Shown here piece by piece: positions 5,347 to 24,101 of a DNA stretch of 64,000 bases. How positions within the stretch are numbered: position 1 is the first letter of the stretch; each line of letters opens with the position of its first letter. Source of the DNA: an uncultured Clostridia bacterium (lineage in GTDB: Bacteria; Bacillota; Peptococcia; Peptococcales; Peptococcaceae); assembly GCA_944391625.1 (NCBI GenBank), contig CALXUG010000001.1, forward strand, positions 124,001-188,000. The letters are read 5' to 3'. The position numbers and the translations under genes were made by a program. The notes under the pieces were generated by a model. It did no database searches and was not told where the DNA came from. It worked only from the letters and a program-made list of their open reading frames with translations.

Positions 5347-6369
5347 GTGATTATTATTAGAGCGCCAAACGGCTTTGGAACTGTGGCCCGGTTATCCGGG
5401 AACCGGCGTAGGCCCTTCATCATCAAGAAAGTGATTGGATGGAATGACAAGGGCCATCCAATTTATGAGATCATCGGCTATGCCGCCACACGGGAAGAAG
5501 GCTTGATAATCCTTTCAGAATACAACCGTGATCCGTGGGATGTTGACCGGGCCAAGATCACGGTAAAAGAACTATTTGAACTCTGGAAGGAAAAGAAGGC
5601 CCCCAAGCTGGGGGAATCTAACCGTTCATCTTTGTGTTCAGCGTTCAAGCATTGTTCAGCGTTGTGGGAAAAGCCCTATAAACAAATTCGATCCTACCAA
5701 ATGCAAGAAACTATTGACGGGTGCGGGAAGGGATATAGCACCCAAGCGGCAATCAAGAACCTTTGGGGCCATCTTGACCGGTTCGCTTTGGAAATGGACA
5801 TAATCAACCGGTGCTTTTCTGATCTTCTCACTTCTGATCCAATTCCACCAACCAGCCGCCTTCCATTCAGCAAGGATGAAGTCAAAAAGGTTTGGGCGCA
5901 TCAGGAACAGCCTTGGGTTGATACCGTCTTGATCCTGATATATTCCGGGTGGCGGATCAGTGAACTTCTGAATTTGAAGCCTGAAGATATTGACCTTCAG
6001 GCCGGGACGATGAAGGGCGGAACCAAAACCAAGGCCGGTAAAAATCGGCTGGTTCCTATTCATTCCAAAATCAGGCCATTGGTTGAAGCCCGTCTTGCTG
6101 AAAGTGGCCCCCGCTTGATCAGCTATAACGGAAGGGCTTGTTCCATAACGCAATACCGTATTTTTTGGGCGGATATTATGAAGGCCCTTGGAATGAACCA
6201 CACCCCGCATGAATGCCGCCACACCTTTGAAAGTCAACTGGACAGCGCCGGGGCAAACCGGAAGTGTATTGATCTTCTGATGGGTCATGTGTCCAAAGAC
6301 ACGGGAAACCGGGTCTATAATCATAAGACTTTGGACGAACTGAAAGCCGCCGTGGAACTGGTGGAATAG
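5347..6369 (+). CDS. tyrosine site-specific recombinase (integrase)
   Basis: A 340-residue integrase. The N-terminus carries an Arm-binding-like beta region, then a core-binding helical domain (about 75-155), then the catalytic domain. The catalytic residues are visible: Arg in GWRISELLNL, Lys in the beta-hairpin (GGTKTKAGKNR), HECRH, and the final LMGHVSKDTGNRVYNH with the Tyr nucleophile. The start is GTG at 5347. It is the last gene before host sequence, so it marks the right end of the element. It should catalyse insertion and excision. Its orientation matches the repressor and opposes the replication genes. Confidence 0.93.
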   Translation: MIIIRAPNGFGTVARLSGNRRRPFIIKKVIGWNDKGHPIYEIIGYAATREEGLIILSEYNRDPWDVDRAKITVKELFELWKEKKAPKLGESNRSSLCSAFKHCSALWEKPYKQIRSYQMQETIDGCGKGYSTQAAIKNLWGHLDRFALEMDIINRCFSDLLTSDPIPPTSRLPFSKDEVKKVWAHQEQPWVDTVLILIYSGWRISELLNLKPEDIDLQAGTMKGGTKTKAGKNRLVPIHSKIRPLVEARLAESGPRLISYNGRACSITQYRIFWADIMKALGMNHTPHECRHTFESQLDSAGANRKCIDLLMGHVSKDTGNRVYNHKTLDELKAAVELVE

Positions 6370-7195: not shown

Positions 7196-8563
7196 ATGAC
7201 AACACAAATTTTTCAGGTACGCTATAATCCCATGCAACTAACATCTATCCCTGCATTTATGAATATCAACGGCACATTTCGACAGGGTAGCAAAGATGTA
7301 TTTTTTCTGCGTCTGATTGGTTGTGTTACGCAAGAGGCTTTGCTGCAAGACATCGCATATATAGATGCACGAATGCAGCAAAATACAAGCAGCGTTCTGC
7401 GTATTCTGCAATTTCCTGATTTACCCACACTAGAGCAGCTGCCTTACGATATGATCCAATGGGAGTGTCCCCAGCAGCTTTTGCGTTACCATAGTCCATC
7501 CCCGCTGCTGCAGCAAACTATACAGCAGCATTTGGCAGCGTTACCCCAATTATATAAAACTTATTATCCAGCTTCCAGTCAATCCATGCTGAAAAACTTT
7601 ATTATAAAAATTTTGTTCTGGTGTGACCACTTCTTTCCAACATTGTTTACTCAATGGGATATCCGCCGTTCGGTAAAATTTATATGCAGCGGTCCGTTAA
7701 AAAAACAGGAATATTTATTCTGCTTTTTATTAACGCAGTTGGGCGTGGATGTACTCTACCTCAATCCAGAACAGGATTTGACACTGGAGCCTGCTTTACT
7801 GCAACTTTCTGCTCTGATTCAACAGCCACAACGTCTTGCTGTTGCCATCCCTGCGCCATCAACAAAAGCAATATGTAAAGAAAAACCACCTGTTATCCAA
7901 GCGGAACCAATACAAACACCGGTAGCATCAGCGGAGATGTCACCAACAGCCCGACAGCCGGCTTCTGCCATAAAACCGGACAGCGCTGCCGAAAAATCTT
8001 TTGAAGAACTGGCGATGTTGGCTTCTTCGGTGGTTATGATCGAAGTGTTGGACAACCAAGGAACCTGTTTTAAAACTGGCTCCGGTATTTTAGTTCATCC
8101 CCAGGGATACATTTTAACCAATTTTCATGTAGTTTCTGACAGCAGTCATTATCGCATCAACCTGGAAGGGGAAACAGAAAGTTATTCCTGTCATGATATC
8201 GTCAAGTACAACTATATTTATGATTTAGCTTTGCTGCGCATTGACCACCCCTGTCAGCCGTTGTCTGTCTATCAGGGAGAAAAATCATTGATTCGCGGAC
8301 AAAAAGTGGTGGCTATCGGCAGTCCCTTAGGCTTGTTTAATTCTGTTTCCGATGGTATTATTTCCGGTTTTCGCACCATTCATGATACCAATATGATTCA
8401 ATTTACAGCACCCACTTCGCCAGGCAGCTCCGGCGGTGCGCTGCTCAATATGCAGGGCGAAGTAATTGGTATTTGTACCGCTGGCATTCAGGAAGGGCAA
8501 AATTTAAATCTGGCAGTGGAACACCAGACCATTCTCTCCTTTTTAAGCGGCTTCCTTCCGTAA
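7196..8563 (+). CDS. YceG-like segment fused to trypsin-like serine protease
   Basis: A 455-residue protein with two parts. Residues about 130-200 (MLKNFIIKILFWCDHFF, then KFICSGPLKKQEYLFCFLL, then GVDVLYLNP) match the repeated YceG-like motif also present in the protein at 15306-17585. A Pro/Ala-rich linker (about 215-265) follows. Residues about 270-455 form an HtrA/trypsin-like protease with His311 (LTNFHVV), Asp343 (YDLALL) and Ser412 (SPGSSGG). No signal peptide or membrane segment is evident and no PDZ domain follows, so I expect a cytosolic protease. It faces the Ter operon across a shared hairpin. The protease call is firm. The YceG relationship is by eye. Confidence 0.85.
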   Translation: MTTQIFQVRYNPMQLTSIPAFMNINGTFRQGSKDVFFLRLIGCVTQEALLQDIAYIDARMQQNTSSVLRILQFPDLPTLEQLPYDMIQWECPQQLLRYHSPSPLLQQTIQQHLAALPQLYKTYYPASSQSMLKNFIIKILFWCDHFFPTLFTQWDIRRSVKFICSGPLKKQEYLFCFLLTQLGVDVLYLNPEQDLTLEPALLQLSALIQQPQRLAVAIPAPSTKAICKEKPPVIQAEPIQTPVASAEMSPTARQPASAIKPDSAAEKSFEELAMLASSVVMIEVLDNQGTCFKTGSGILVHPQGYILTNFHVVSDSSHYRINLEGETESYSCHDIVKYNYIYDLALLRIDHPCQPLSVYQGEKSLIRGQKVVAIGSPLGLFNSVSDGIISGFRTIHDTNMIQFTAPTSPGSSGGALLNMQGEVIGICTAGIQEGQNLNLAVEHQTILSFLSGFLP

Positions 8564-17807: not shown

Positions 17808-18800
17808 ATGACTCGTATTCTTTCACAAGTTCCACTGCCTCTGGCCTATCATGTAGGGGCACTTTTATACACACCGGCCAATCGAATTTCTGTGGCAGAT
17901 TCCATTTGCCATCAGCGTTTCGGTACGCAATTTTCTCTGGCGCTGTGCCTGGAGGACACTATTAACGATGCTTATTTGCATCAGGCCGAACAACAAACCA
18001 TTCAAACCATACAAACCATTTACCAAAAAAGACAGCAAGAAGAATTCTATCTGCCTCGGCTATTTATCCGCCTGCGTAGTCCGGAACAAATATCCACACT
18101 ATTACAGCCAATGGGACAAGCTGCTGAACTGCTGACCGGATTTATTTTTCCTAAATTTTCTCTGGAAAATGCATCTGCTTATCTGGCAGCTTTGGAAGAT
18201 GCAAATCATGTCTCCCGTCCCAAACCTTTTTTCATGATGCCTGTCTTGGAGGACGCCTCTTTACTTTCCTTGCGTTCCAGAGGTGAAACATTGGAGCAGC
18301 TAAAGGATTTACTGCAACCTTATTATCAGCAGGTACTCAATATTCGCGTGGGCTGCAATGATCTGTGCCATTTATTTGGTCTGCGCCGCCAACTTCATCA
18401 AACCATCTATGATATTTTGCCAGTAGCCAATATTCTCAGCGATATTCTTACCGTTTTCCAGACCGATTACGTAGTATCTGCGCCGGTATGGGAATATTTT
18501 CAGGATGAAACCGAACTATGGAAAACTGGATTAAAACGGGAATTAGAATTAGATTTACTCAATGGCTTTATTGGCAAAACAGTCATTCATCCGTCTCAAA
18601 TCGCGGTAGTCAATGAGGGGCTCAAAGTTTCGCCTGCCGACTATGCCGATGCCTGCCAAATTTTAAACTGGAATCCCGATAATCCTTATTATGTATCCGG
18701 TGGCGCACAGACACAGCGCATGAATGAATACAAGACCCATCACCGTTGGGCTCAGCGCATTCTATTGCTGGCAGAATATTACGGCATCAGACAAGAATAG
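17808..18800 (+). CDS. HpcH/HpaI aldolase, citrate-lyase-beta-like, Ter-associated
   Basis: A 330-residue TIM-barrel lyase-like protein. Visible elements: GALLYTPANR at strand 1, LCLEDTIND (substrate/CoA-side acid), PRLFIRLRSPE, FPKFSLENA (Lys of the fourth strand region), a long middle with NIRVGCNDLCHLFGLRR, and the C-terminal GKTVIHPSQIAVVNEGL, which is the CitE-type GKxxIHPxQ motif. This family member is standard in the Ter biosynthetic module, where it is thought to make or break a C-C bond in a nucleoside-like product. It reads away from the YceG run and shares a 222-bp intergenic region with it. The substrate is unknown. Confidence 0.88.
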   Translation: MTRILSQVPLPLAYHVGALLYTPANRISVADSICHQRFGTQFSLALCLEDTINDAYLHQAEQQTIQTIQTIYQKRQQEEFYLPRLFIRLRSPEQISTLLQPMGQAAELLTGFIFPKFSLENASAYLAALEDANHVSRPKPFFMMPVLEDASLLSLRSRGETLEQLKDLLQPYYQQVLNIRVGCNDLCHLFGLRRQLHQTIYDILPVANILSDILTVFQTDYVVSAPVWEYFQDETELWKTGLKRELELDLLNGFIGKTVIHPSQIAVVNEGLKVSPADYADACQILNWNPDNPYYVSGGAQTQRMNEYKTHHRWAQRILLLAEYYGIRQE

Positions 18801-18893
18801 TTCTTCCGCAAAAATTGCTACATTGTTCTCAGTAATGTATTAATGCAGGAAGACGTTTATCCTGATTTCTTTCATCTGAACATAAGCAAAAAC

Positions 18894-18949
18894 AAAAGCC
18901 TTACAGATTGTATGTCACATAACACCATAAATCTATAAGGCTTTTGTTT
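18894..18949. terminator. bidirectional terminator between convergent genes
   Basis: The 16-nt arms at 18894-18909 and 18930-18945 pair at 15 of 16 positions. TTTTGTTTG follows on the plus strand and TTTTGTTTTTGC on the minus strand. It ends the aldolase gene and the large multidomain gene that converge here. Confidence 0.85.
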
Positions 18950-19002: not shown

Positions 19003-22000
19003 TTATTTTGCCATGATACTCTCCAACCGCACCAAACGCTGAATATCATCTTCTACATAAACAGAGGCAGCAATATTTTTATCATATTGCCCACAGTTGC
19101 CACGATCCGGACAGCGAGGAGAAATAATCGCTTCTCCCAAACGGCCTAAAGTCAACCGACGACCAAAGGTTTTCTGATATTCTTCTTCTAACACCTGTAA
19201 GATATCATGCACATTCTGCAAACAGGTCAGAGAAAAATAATATAATGCATCCCGCTGCACATCCCGCATATAGCTGGGCACTACATAAGGAAGAATAAAA
19301 TTGACAGACGGTATCAGATTGGCATCTGTTTCTTCCTTCCGGGCTACCATATCTCCGCCAATAAACGGATACAATGTCGATTCCACATACCACCCCCGCA
19401 AACGAGGCAAGAAATAAGCGCTTTCTACCGGACAGTTCCGCACACCAATCAAATCCCTGCCCCGCGCAGACAAAATGCCCACTACCATACGATCCACCTG
19501 TACCTGCTCCTGTTCTAAAATAGGCCAAAGTCCCTGAATTCGATAGCCTTTGTGCAGCAAATCATCTACCAAAATCACCGGACGATCAAAGGATTTTATG
19601 GTACGCACCTGATTTTCCAGAGTAGAATAGAATGGGAAATTTTGAATACTAAATTGTTTAATGGCCCCATCATATACCTTTTCACTGTGCAGTGTTTTGG
19701 TGACAGTATTAGGCACCACCATACCGCGCAAAATTTTACCAAAAGGCACACACATATTTTTTCCTAACTTGCGTACCGGCAACGGCTCATTTGGCACATG
19801 ATTGGCTCGGGTAATTTTTTGCAGCATTTTATGGTGCATAATCCCCGCATCAATAGAAAGCACCAGATTGCCCGGATACAGCGCAGTCATAATTTCTTGC
19901 AGTCTATGATGGCTTTGCTCTACTACAGCCAGTAATCGTTCATTTCGATTAAATGGCTCTTTGATTGTTGTCTCTATATTTTTTAACAGTGTCAGCGGGG
20001 AGCGCATATCCACCAGATACAGAACTACATCTTTCTGTTCCAACGGTGCTGGTAAAAATCCCTGCCGCTGCAGTACCGATTCCACCATCTCATCGGCAGC
20101 ACCATAATAAATACTGTATCCATAATCCTGCTCCAGATAATGACTGATTGTTTCTGTCAGCAATAATTGTTCACCGTTTTTGATTTTAATATCGGGAAGC
20201 CGATAGATACCAGTTAATACAGCAATCTTACCAAAAATTCGTTTGCGCAGCCATTCCACAACATGGGCATCCTGAAAAACACCATACATATCTGTTGTTT
20301 CCAGAGTATAGGACAGTGCAAAGGCTACAATCCGCTGCTCCTGGCTGCTATCCTTCAACAAAGTCAGCATAGCATTAGGCTTTTGCCAATGCTCAGATAA
20401 AATGTCCATTAAATCATCCATCTGAGAAAAACTGACCAATAGCTGATAAACCTCCTGCGAACTCTCTTCGGTTACAAAATCAAATTTCATATTTTTTGCC
20501 TGCAAAATTGGCTTATATTGGGGCTCTCGCAAATACAGTCCATAATGATAAATATAATTCTGCGCCAAAGGACTGATCAAATTGGAAATATCCCGGTTAC
20601 AGTCGATATTTTCCCGAATACGGGTCGAACTGATATCTTCCAAATAAGTGGGCAACGTTAAATAAATCAAATCACCCTGCACAGAATTCCGCACAGTTTG
20701 TTCAATACGTTGTTCTAACTCCGCAGTGGTTTCGGCATCCATACCCTGCGCCCGCCGAAACACAATATGATTATAAGAATGGATGGAGCCCGGTTTCGGT
20801 TCTTTTTTGTAGGAAGATGCATTTAAAATGACATCACTGCCCACTACAATATAGACTTCTTTGTCAGGGAACAAATCATGCAGCCTAGCCATGTCTCCAT
20901 CATTGGCCAAATTGATAGGAATATCGTCAGGAAACAGATATACGTTTTCCTCATCGGCCACCGACATAACAATAATTTGCCGTCTGGTCATCCGCGGCTG
21001 TGTTTTTTTCGACCATGAAAATTCATCTAATGCCAGATAAACCTGAAAACCCAGATTGCGGATTTCCTGCACAATGCCTTTATGGCTGGACGAGAACGGG
21101 TCAAAAGTGCCGGGGAAAAAAGCAATTCGCTCTATTTCAGGAATATCAAACCGACCATACTCCATCAAATAATCAGAAATAAACCGATAAATATGGTTCA
21201 AGGAACCGGCCCGATTAAAGAACGACAACCCATTCAGTTCTTTGTCATGAATCAAAATCAACATTCGTTTATAAATTAAATAGAAAATCTTATATTTTTC
21301 TTCCAACGATAACCGCACAGAACCAAATAATTGATGACCCAGCACAATAAAGGCTTCCGAATTTACTTCTTCGTCATAACTGGATAAACCACTGAGCAGC
21401 ATTCCCAAAATTACTCGGCGTCGTTCTTCAATGACAATATCATCTTCTCCAAACCGCTGTTGATAAGCCGGATAATATTCTAAAATAACACCCAGTGTAT
21501 TTAATGCCACCGATACCACGCGATTATTGGCATTGCGCAGCAATTTCTGGATATCCTGAATAATTTCATCCAATTCTTGCGGCTGTAAATACAAGGCAAT
21601 CTGTCCTAAATATTCAGGAATATATTTGGAAAACTCATATTCACCAATTTCCAGCCCTTTGGTCAGCTCAATTACCAACTCATTACGTTCTTCCAGAGAT
21701 AATAGCGGCGCAATAGAAACCAGCCCCTGCCCTGCTCTGTGACGCACGCTAATCCGTTCACCCACTTTTAAAATATTAGATAAGTGGGCGGCCACCTGCA
21801 GCAACGAAATAGAATGACGTTCCCGCGCAACTTCCAGTAAAAAATCAATATTAGTCAATTTGAGCATCCATGGCGTAGCAACCTTTAAATTTTCCAAAAA
21901 CAGTTCTGATACCGCCTGCTGTTCTTCCGTCCCGGATAATTGCAGTTTCTCAGCCAGTTCATCAGCACCAAGCTGCTTGTAGATCCTCATCAGATTATAT

Positions 22001-23871
22001 CGAAAACCGACCGGCATCTGTGCAGTTTGCATTTCAGACAGCATAGTCAATACAGCGTTCTTTAAACTGAGATACAAATGGGAACAACCGGAAAGATATT
22101 GCAAAAAGCGCAGCGCCGCTGCTTGTAATTCTAAATTGGGCCGCCGTAAAATAGCCTGGGTGAATTCAACCAGCTCCTGCAGCTGAAAAGGCTCACAGAG
22201 CTGCAACGGTACCGAAATCAAAGTATCCATTAAAACAAAGCCTGTTTCATCATCCCAATGGGCTTCGTGATAATAATACAGCAGAGCATCTAAATATTGA
22301 TAACTTTCTTCTTCCGAACTGTTTTCCAATACAACCGTCACAACATTTTTCAGGGTATACCCCAGCCACCGCTTATGCCGTTCTGTAATCTTATGATCAG
22401 GCATAATAATCATGTTGATATATTTCTGCCATAAGGTAAGACTGGTGGTCTGGCCTACCGGCAGCGTTACACCATCAGGCAACGCCTTGCGGTTGATCTC
22501 ATCGTATCGTACAATAATCTTCCCCATCAATGCAGCAGCCTGCCGCCGAATATCCCCTTCCCGATGCATCAGAAGTTCATAAAGAAAATTCAGGGTCATA
22601 CTTTTCTGCCGCTGGGTCATGTAAGTGTAATATTCCTCAAAAATATGAATATACGCCCTTGTATTTTTCCAGTCCTTTTCACTTCTGGCTGCTTCCAGCA
22701 AGGTACCGAAAGAAGTTTCAGTATTTAAAAACTCCATCAGCCAGATATTATGGCGGATAGCCAAAAATTTGAAATTGACAATGGCTTCCTGAGCATCTAC
22801 CAACGCAATGTCTTTTGGCTGCACCGGCTGCAGTTCTCTGCTGCTCAAATCAATATTGACGCCAAGACTGCACATATAATCTTCAAAATCCTTCAGTTTG
22901 GCATATACATATCGGTAGCGCCGTTCTTTGGCAGCATCTACATGCTCCAGTTTACTGAGTATGATATGAAAAGAATCTTCCAAAGAGAAAATACCCATTT
23001 TTTCTTTTGGTGCATCACATTCTTCCCGACGCACACGAAAATCTGCATAAATCAAAATCAGGGATTCCAACGGTAAATTTTCCAGCTCTAAATCCCAAGT
23101 GGAATGATTGACTGCAATATGGGCAATGGTAGGCATATTTTTCTCTTCAAACCATTGACCGGTGTAATAATAATGCAAATGGGGCATCCGTTTCATTTCC
23201 GCAGCTTTGCAGCCAAATTTGCCAATATCATGGCCAACTGCTGCTCCGGAAACCAACGCCAGATTAACAGGTACACCGGCTTCTTTTAACTGTCTGGCCA
23301 CATGCATGGCAACATAATGAACACCGGCAATATGACTCAGTGTATTGAAATAAAAAATCTCTTTACCAATATACATCAATTCATACAGATAGAGCTTACG
23401 AAAATAATATAAAAATCGTTCATATTCTTCTTTTATCACATGATCCGGAAAGGTTTCCAAATCTAAAAATTCAAAATCGCTGAACTGATCAAAGGCTTTA
23501 TGCATTCGCATATAGTCCAGCATACATCGCAAAACACGAATAAAAAACTGCACACCATTCTGAAACTGTTCTGGAAACTCCGTCAGTACACTATCTGGAT
23601 AAGACCAGCTGATAATATACCAATAGCTATACTCTAACCAACCCTGTTTTGGTTCCTGCTGATACCAGTGCGGGCATATTTCTCGGCACAACGATACCAC
23701 ATCGGCACAATTCCATGGTTCCGGCTGCTCCAATAAAGCAATCACACCATATTTTAATTCCTCCTGCTGTGTTTCCGCCCGCCGCAATAATAACTGAGGC
23801 TGCTGAAGAAAAAATTCCGATATCACATTCTGTTCAAAAATTACTTGTATCTCGTCAACAATCTGTGTCAT
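19003..23871 (-). CDS. 1,622-residue multidomain Ter-associated enzyme (HD, helical repeats, nucleotidyltransferase, GNAT-like, PRTase)
   Basis: Order by residue: 1-170, helical, unassigned; about 175-320, HD-type phosphohydrolase (H180, GHDIGK at 213-218, later His and Asp ligands); about 400-905, alpha-helical HEAT-like repeats; about 914-1115, NadD/cytidylyltransferase fold with GTFDPFSSSHKG (921-932) and ISSTRIR (1090-1096); about 1125-1280, GNAT-like region (GEQLLLTETI, then RQGFLP); about 1310-1515, phosphoribosyltransferase with PRPP loop VILVDDLLHKGYR (1432-1444). A Cys-rich end RCPDRGNC may bind metal. In the HxGH motif the first His is Ser (SSSH). PRTase, HD and nucleotidyltransferase activities suit synthesis or salvage of a nucleotide-like compound. 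The GNAT call is tentative. The gene is a single unbroken frame. Confidence 0.8.
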   Translation of the reverse strand: MTQIVDEIQVIFEQNVISEFFLQQPQLLLRRAETQQEELKYGVIALLEQPEPWNCADVVSLCREICPHWYQQEPKQGWLEYSYWYIISWSYPDSVLTEFPEQFQNGVQFFIRVLRCMLDYMRMHKAFDQFSDFEFLDLETFPDHVIKEEYERFLYYFRKLYLYELMYIGKEIFYFNTLSHIAGVHYVAMHVARQLKEAGVPVNLALVSGAAVGHDIGKFGCKAAEMKRMPHLHYYYTGQWFEEKNMPTIAHIAVNHSTWDLELENLPLESLILIYADFRVRREECDAPKEKMGIFSLEDSFHIILSKLEHVDAAKERRYRYVYAKLKDFEDYMCSLGVNIDLSSRELQPVQPKDIALVDAQEAIVNFKFLAIRHNIWLMEFLNTETSFGTLLEAARSEKDWKNTRAYIHIFEEYYTYMTQRQKSMTLNFLYELLMHREGDIRRQAAALMGKIIVRYDEINRKALPDGVTLPVGQTTSLTLWQKYINMIIMPDHKITERHKRWLGYTLKNVVTVVLENSSEEESYQYLDALLYYYHEAHWDDETGFVLMDTLISVPLQLCEPFQLQELVEFTQAILRRPNLELQAAALRFLQYLSGCSHLYLSLKNAVLTMLSEMQTAQMPVGFRYNLMRIYKQLGADELAEKLQLSGTEEQQAVSELFLENLKVATPWMLKLTNIDFLLEVARERHSISLLQVAAHLSNILKVGERISVRHRAGQGLVSIAPLLSLEERNELVIELTKGLEIGEYEFSKYIPEYLGQIALYLQPQELDEIIQDIQKLLRNANNRVVSVALNTLGVILEYYPAYQQRFGEDDIVIEERRRVILGMLLSGLSSYDEEVNSEAFIVLGHQLFGSVRLSLEEKYKIFYLIYKRMLILIHDKELNGLSFFNRAGSLNHIYRFISDYLMEYGRFDIPEIERIAFFPGTFDPFSSSHKGIVQEIRNLGFQVYLALDEFSWSKKTQPRMTRRQIIVMSVADEENVYLFPDDIPINLANDGDMARLHDLFPDKEVYIVVGSDVILNASSYKKEPKPGSIHSYNHIVFRRAQGMDAETTAELEQRIEQTVRNSVQGDLIYLTLPTYLEDISSTRIRENIDCNRDISNLISPLAQNYIYHYGLYLREPQYKPILQAKNMKFDFVTEESSQEVYQLLVSFSQMDDLMDILSEHWQKPNAMLTLLKDSSQEQRIVAFALSYTLETTDMYGVFQDAHVVEWLRKRIFGKIAVLTGIYRLPDIKIKNGEQLLLTETISHYLEQDYGYSIYYGAADEMVESVLQRQGFLPAPLEQKDVVLYLVDMRSPLTLLKNIETTIKEPFNRNERLLAVVEQSHHRLQEIMTALYPGNLVLSIDAGIMHHKMLQKITRANHVPNEPLPVRKLGKNMCVPFGKILRGMVVPNTVTKTLHSEKVYDGAIKQFSIQNFPFYSTLENQVRTIKSFDRPVILVDDLLHKGYRIQGLWPILEQEQVQVDRMVVGILSARGRDLIGVRNCPVESAYFLPRLRGWYVESTLYPFIGGDMVARKEETDANLIPSVNFILPYVVPSYMRDVQRDALYYFSLTCLQNVHDILQVLEEEYQKTFGRRLTLGRLGEAIISPRCPDRGNCGQYDKNIAASVYVEDDIQRLVRLESIMAK

Positions 23872-24101
23872 TCCTCCACCTTCTTTTCTATATTTATTTC
23901 TGCCATTTTCTTGATAATTTATGCTCCTTTTATTATGCAGAATCGAGAAAAAAATTACAACTATAAATTCTGTTTCTTTTTCATAATGCTTCTTTCTAAC
24001 ATAATTTTATAAAATAAAAAACGGACCAGAATCACAGCACCTGTCAAGGCCTGATAATCCCGCTCCGTCTTTTCACATATTACAACAGTGCTGTCACTAT
24101 A

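Follow-up and report, generated by a model that had tools for sequence, protein, structure and literature searches.

A five-domain megaprotein co-inherited with a dehydrogenase and a flavoprotein in Bacillota

Two described systems resemble parts of the locus reported here. The Ter-operon nucleoside pathway of Anantharaman et al. 2012 reportedly includes HpcH-, HAD- and YceG-type genes. As well, a fused YqeK domain in JCVI-Syn3A has been proposed to proofread NAD synthesis and cleaves NaAD analogues (PMC9426524). The protein studied here is a single-chain megaprotein encoded in a stretch of 64,000 nucleotides from an uncultured Clostridia bacterium (contig CALXUG010000001.1, positions 124,001 to 188,000; hereafter the window). 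It is close to certain that this protein has the five-domain anatomy described below and, jointly with this, that it belongs to a three-gene module.

The first-pass annotation had read the gene as one frame of 1,622 residues and left its strand unstated; the frame is borne out at 19003..23871 and lies on the minus strand. The features of the gene and its product are as follows.

19003..23871, minus strand: megaprotein gene, an open reading frame of 1,622 aa with an ATG start and homologues
23873..23882, minus strand: Shine-Dalgarno-like AAGGTGGAGG, just upstream of the megaprotein ATG (direct reading)
22837..23454, minus strand: HD metal-dependent phosphohydrolase-type domain, residues ~140-345, with H180, H214-D215, H233, H251, H256 and D277
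21157..22809, minus strand: HEAT/ARM-type alpha-solenoid, residues ~355-905 (AlphaFold pLDDT 88, Foldseek, VIA)
20521..21132, minus strand: NadD/NMNAT-like adenylyltransferase domain, residues ~914-1117, with GTFDPFSxSHK, DEFSWSK and ISSTxIR
20002..20499, minus strand: GNAT-like domain, residues ~1125-1290 (VIA fold match, alignment)
19006..20004, minus strand: PRTase-like C-terminal region, residues ~1290-1622 (~333 residues), with conserved VPFG, PNTVTK, ILVDDLLHKGYR and YPFIGGD
18890..18949, no strand: inverted repeat AAACAAAAGCCTTACAGATT ... AATCTATAAGGCTTTTGTTT between the convergent HpcH and megaprotein genes (direct reading)

The loop of the inverted repeat is 20, which exceeds the loop length allowed in the repeat scan, and the repeat could be a shared terminator of the HpcH and megaprotein genes. 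The window's own genome carries one copy of the megaprotein. Relatives of the same genus encode full-length single chains with 68-82% identity to it (80-82% in the closest), and more distant homologues, also single chains, share 37-48% identity and come from Mogibacterium, Acetoanaerobium noterae and other Bacillota. Full-length relatives at 37-82% identity indicate that the open reading frame is a conserved protein and not a chance one. The homologue search covered Bacillota, plus GTDB genomes by one pattern scan each, as well as phages, viral contigs and plasmids. More than 100 of the Bacillota genomes sampled encode the five-domain fusion as one chain; the first-pass annotation had made its proposal depend on the fusion being kept in homologous loci, and a single chain is what the homologues examined encode. 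True split-gene forms were considered and rejected, as the two candidates (L139 and L140, in genomes G558 and G591) are broken at runs of N and represent assembly joins. A phage or mobile-element origin was rejected as well, since phage records and viral contigs gave no match to the megaprotein, and so was a role in anti-phage defence, the megaprotein having no PADLOC match. The sole plasmid match is the 2.6-Mb Acetoanaerobium noterae replicon NZ_CP154629.1 (L030), which was deposited as a plasmid and whose size suggests a chromosome.

From its N terminus, the megaprotein is composed of a helical part, the HD domain, the HEAT/ARM solenoid, the NadD-like domain, the GNAT-like domain and the type I PRTase-like region. 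AlphaFold models built from alignments of about 50 homologues reached pLDDT 88.0 and pTM 0.86 for residues 1-930, and pLDDT 89.7 and pTM 0.88 for residues 890-1622; the fold-search match lists shown for these two halves are filled by HEAT proteins and by NadD/GNAT proteins, so that their lack of PRTase or HD structures carries no weight. When profiles of the HD and PRTase parts were searched against the PDB, all matches were at chance level. Taken together, the models and the profile or fold matches support all five domain types listed in the first-pass annotation. The solenoid segment is modelled as all-helical, with a fold extending up to ~917, and Foldseek and VIA match it to TOG, CAND1, importins and the PP2A A subunit; the Pfam HEAT score of the window protein is under the cut-off. 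These fold matches lend support to the earlier suggestion that the HEAT-like repeats serve as a scaffold, at least in being a scaffold-like solenoid.

Active-site residues were counted in 53 aligned megaproteins. The HD domain is matched by PF01966 in 33 of 42 members (best 2.5e-7), and the NCBIfam matches of the window protein include no YqeK model. Its residues H180, H214, D215, H233, H256 and D277 are kept in 52 of the 53 proteins and H251 in 49, and the metal ligands H...HD...D of the HD phosphohydrolase superfamily are present in the same proportion (52/53). The NadD-like domain of the window protein is recognized by PF01467 at 1.3e-6, over the gathering score, and by Foldseek at 9.4e-9, and it adopts the NadD fold when compared with Mycobacterium tuberculosis NadD (VIA Z 17.4, rmsd 2.6, 183 aligned). 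H930, W953, K955 and D1013 are invariant (53/53). Both motifs of NadD, (H/T)xGH and ISSTxIR, can be recognized: the former reads (S/T)x(S/G)H, with Ser as first residue in 45 proteins, Thr in 8 and TLGH in some, while ISST, allowing Ser for Thr, is retained in all 53 but one (L104). The window protein scores 33.3 bits and its relatives 36-68 bits against TIGR00482, under the equivalog cut-off of 112 bits, and the domain is therefore called NadD-like and not NadD. A separate true NadD above the cut-off is encoded elsewhere in the genome of all 18 carriers tested, which rules out the megaprotein as the housekeeping NadD.

The GNAT-like domain is nearly invisible by sequence, with Pfam Acetyltransf_1 detecting it in 1 of 37 members, and its GNAT fold is recognized by structure (VIA Z 14.6, rmsd 2.9, 156 aligned, to agmatine N-acetyltransferase). 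It is the least conserved part of the megaprotein (mean column identity 38%), and no (Q/R)xxGx(G/A) acetyl-CoA pyrophosphate loop could be recognized by eye in 37 aligned sequences; the domain probably either lacks catalytic activity or survives as a ligand-binding relic. The C-terminal region has a PF00156 match at E<=1 in 24 of 43 members, with 6.3e-4 as the best value and none in the window protein, and an APRT model matches 33 of 43 (best 4.2e-5). PNTVTK and YPFIGGD are near-invariant in the 53 aligned proteins. The PRPP loop keeps both residues of DD (52/53 each) and the G (51/53), and its end is altered: the final T is R in 51/53, the residue before G is K in 44/53, and TGxT is lost (HKGYR). 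The loop hence departs from hhhhDDhh(S/T)xGxT, which makes catalysis by the PRTase domain doubtful. In the model, D1436-D1437 appear to lie in a strand that leads through a loop into a helix, the order seen in type I PRTases. Such enzymes normally take purines or pyrimidines, not nicotinate. The first-pass annotation had made active-site residues a test of its domain assignments; HD and NadD have them in place, PRTase has only some of them, and GNAT lacks them. Since the HD and NadD residues are near-invariant, these two domains are probably catalytically active, as far as alignments can tell, while the PRTase domain is uncertain and the GNAT domain is probably no normal acetyltransferase.

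In addition to its own domains, the megaprotein is accompanied by two redox proteins. Of its 53 homologous loci, 49 hold enough sequence to score linkage, and in 46 of these an LDH/MDH-like gene (product ~415 aa) and an FMN-reductase-like gene (~350 aa) lie directly 3' of the megaprotein gene on the same strand. The spacing between the megaprotein and LDH-like genes is usually below 30 nt or negative, and the two partner genes most often overlap by 4 nt. The LDH-like family retains GDVG, an Asp after the second strand, DVRM, SDPVD and GPHG, which by eye correspond to the cofactor site, the loop Arg and the catalytic His of LDH; the catalytic Asp168 of LDH has no clear counterpart in the LDH-like protein. 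The FMN-reductase-like flavoprotein retains a four-cysteine motif, DCxGCx4Cx7C. One of these proteins (L050:1649-2761) was also seen to have an N-terminal extension of ~160 aa with a conserved GxPLVEAt..L.NF; Pfam matched this extension in none of the relatives scanned, and it is possibly a second flavodoxin-like domain.

The same association is found at the level of whole genomes. Among 199 genomes of one order, 87 carry the megaprotein, 84 the LDH-like gene and 83 the FMN-reductase-like gene. The LDH-like gene occurs in 84 of the 87 megaprotein carriers and in 0 of the 112 non-carriers (Fisher 3e-53, uncorrected for phylogeny), and the flavoprotein gene occurs without the megaprotein in one genome, G511, as a fragment. 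An independent phylum sample of 398 genomes has the megaprotein and the LDH-like gene in the same 7 genomes, and pairwise distances among the three module proteins correlate (r 0.84-0.89). Within the window's genus, the LDH-like gene persists unlinked to the megaprotein in three genomes (G000, G001 and G005). The first-pass annotation missed the partners because in the window's genome they lie together on another contig (C29), apart from the megaprotein. L-serine dehydratase subunit genes were noticed 5' of the megaprotein in 13-14 loci (e.g., L041, L086, L088, L107 and L110), often directly adjacent to it or sharing a few bases with it. Beyond the partner pair, neighbouring genes vary (serine dehydratase, undecaprenyl-diphosphate-synthase-like and others) and give no pathway clue.

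The three carriers without the LDH-like gene are two drafts (G466, and G562 at 74% completeness) and G530, which is finished as a single contig. G530 encodes a full-length homologue (L104/L141; G530:C1:1308661-1313001), and neither an LDH-like nor an FMN-reductase-like gene was found in this finished genome. This homologue has lost ISSTxIR, GTFDP, R1444 and every one of the seven HD residues tested, and the other aligned proteins retain nearly all of these; judging from its sequence, it could be a non-catalytic descendant. The loss of partners together with the loss of motifs argues, as one case, for HD and NadD activities in the service of the partners.

These findings lead us to favour, tentatively, a reading in which three proteins, the megaprotein as large subunit together with the LDH/MDH-like dehydrogenase and the four-cysteine flavoprotein, form one conserved module for making, editing and using a pyridine-type (NAD-like) dinucleotide. 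Dinucleotides are usually made, adenylated and cleaved by domains of the PRTase-like, NadD-like and HD types, and used by dehydrogenases and flavoproteins, which is why this reading is placed before a repair complex and a sensor, in that order. The make-edit-use role is inferred from these domain families, and the term pyridine is taken solely from family resemblance. In such a module, the role of the PRTase-like domain would be to form or bind a phosphoribosylated base and that of the NadD-like domain to adenylate the mononucleotide, and the HD domain might hydrolyse a wrong or spent product, by analogy with YqeK acting for NadD. The HEAT solenoid would keep the active sites together, and the product might be used in redox reactions, or finished, by the dehydrogenase and flavoprotein. 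Because every carrier tested has its own NadD, the NadD-like domain should act on another substrate or at another stage.

It is less probable that the module is a metabolite-repair or salvage complex, in which damaged or abnormal NAD(P)-type or other nucleotides would be recognized and cleaved by the HD domain, their usable part re-adenylated by the NadD-like domain, and the redox state restored by the partners, with no new cofactor involved. Such a role would fit the action of the NadD-fused YqeK on NaAD analogues in JCVI-Syn3A (PMC9426524), the housekeeping NadD already present in carriers, and a patchy distribution like that of an accessory function; however, a near-obligate, dedicated dehydrogenase and flavoprotein exceed the needs of known NAD repair, and the PRTase domain would have no clear role. 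Somewhat less likely again is a metabolic sensor or regulator, whose PRTase-like and GNAT-like domains would only bind PRPP and acyl-CoA, in a PyrR-like manner, and thereby gate HD and NadD activities that control the partners. The altered TGxT of the PRPP loop, the altered acetyl-CoA loop and the low conservation of the GNAT domain point this way, but PNTVTK, DD and YPFIGGD are as near-invariant as expected of an active site, and no DNA- or RNA-binding domain was seen in the megaprotein.

The first-pass annotation had instead proposed a biosynthetic megaenzyme of a Ter metabolite, acting with the products of YceG, HpcH and HAD genes said to lie next to it, and this is very improbable. Gene proximity within one window speaks for it. 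The HpcH-like gene (17808-18800, plus strand) does adjoin the megaprotein gene as its convergent neighbour, while YceG lies beyond it, on the minus strand with TelA, three TerD genes, a calcium ATPase and the HAD gene, the last ~9 kb off; the opposite-strand HpcH gene thus stands between the megaprotein gene and the tellurium-resistance (Ter) operon. Moreover, when thirteen window proteins (Ter, YceG, TelA, HpcH, calcium ATPase and HAD included) were searched against the 53 homologous loci, only the megaprotein was matched, and elsewhere the megaprotein is linked to a different gene pair. The absence holds within the genus too, and in near relatives (L027, L045) the megaprotein gene is flanked by other genes. 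A conserved Ter linkage is refuted by this absence, and the proximity is a coincidence peculiar to the window's genome among those examined. The window also encodes, at 7196-8563 on the plus strand, a fusion of a YceG-like and a trypsin-like protease domain, with a phage-type integrase gene nearby (5347-6369).

Returning to the make-edit-use reading, a further step would be that the three genes make, proofread and use their own NAD-like dinucleotide cofactor, apart from the NAD pool of the cell, in anaerobic Bacillota, which we regard as an unlikely possibility. If a distinct redox cofactor were made, cofactor metabolism would gain a new branch. Strict co-inheritance across many Bacillota families, in cells with a NadD of their own, implies an unassigned nucleotide reaction, and with only three genes involved the module can be tested directly. 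No model in Pfam, NCBIfam or PADLOC covers the five-domain chain or its pairing with the dehydrogenase and flavoprotein, and no description of the architecture was found in open-access literature, which is weak evidence that none exists. Each domain can be placed in a known superfamily, while the whole system is without a known counterpart among the resources searched.

Compared with the Ter-operon nucleoside pathway, the window shares HpcH-, HAD- and YceG-type genes near the megaprotein gene, whereas in every other genome examined the megaprotein is unlinked to Ter genes. Type I PRTases (APRT/HGPRT-like) resemble the C-terminal region in a weak sequence match at the PRPP loop and in the modelled strand-DD-loop-helix order, but the megaprotein has (H/N)KG(Y/H)R in place of TGxT and a large family-specific C-terminal part. 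With the NadD/NMNAT family, the megaprotein shares the fold (Z 17.4), ISSTxIR, GTFDP and the second His of (H/T)xGH; it differs in falling under every NCBIfam NadD cut-off, in having Ser/Thr for the first His, and in its own DEFSWSK motif. Like the mycoplasma NadD-YqeK fusion (JCVISYN3A_0380 type; PMC9426524), it combines in a single polypeptide an HD hydrolase with a domain of the nicotinate-nucleotide adenylyltransferase type. However, that fusion is the cell's own NadD, whereas megaprotein carriers have a separate one, and the megaprotein places the HD domain first and adds a HEAT solenoid, GNAT and PRTase domains and two near-obligate redox partners.
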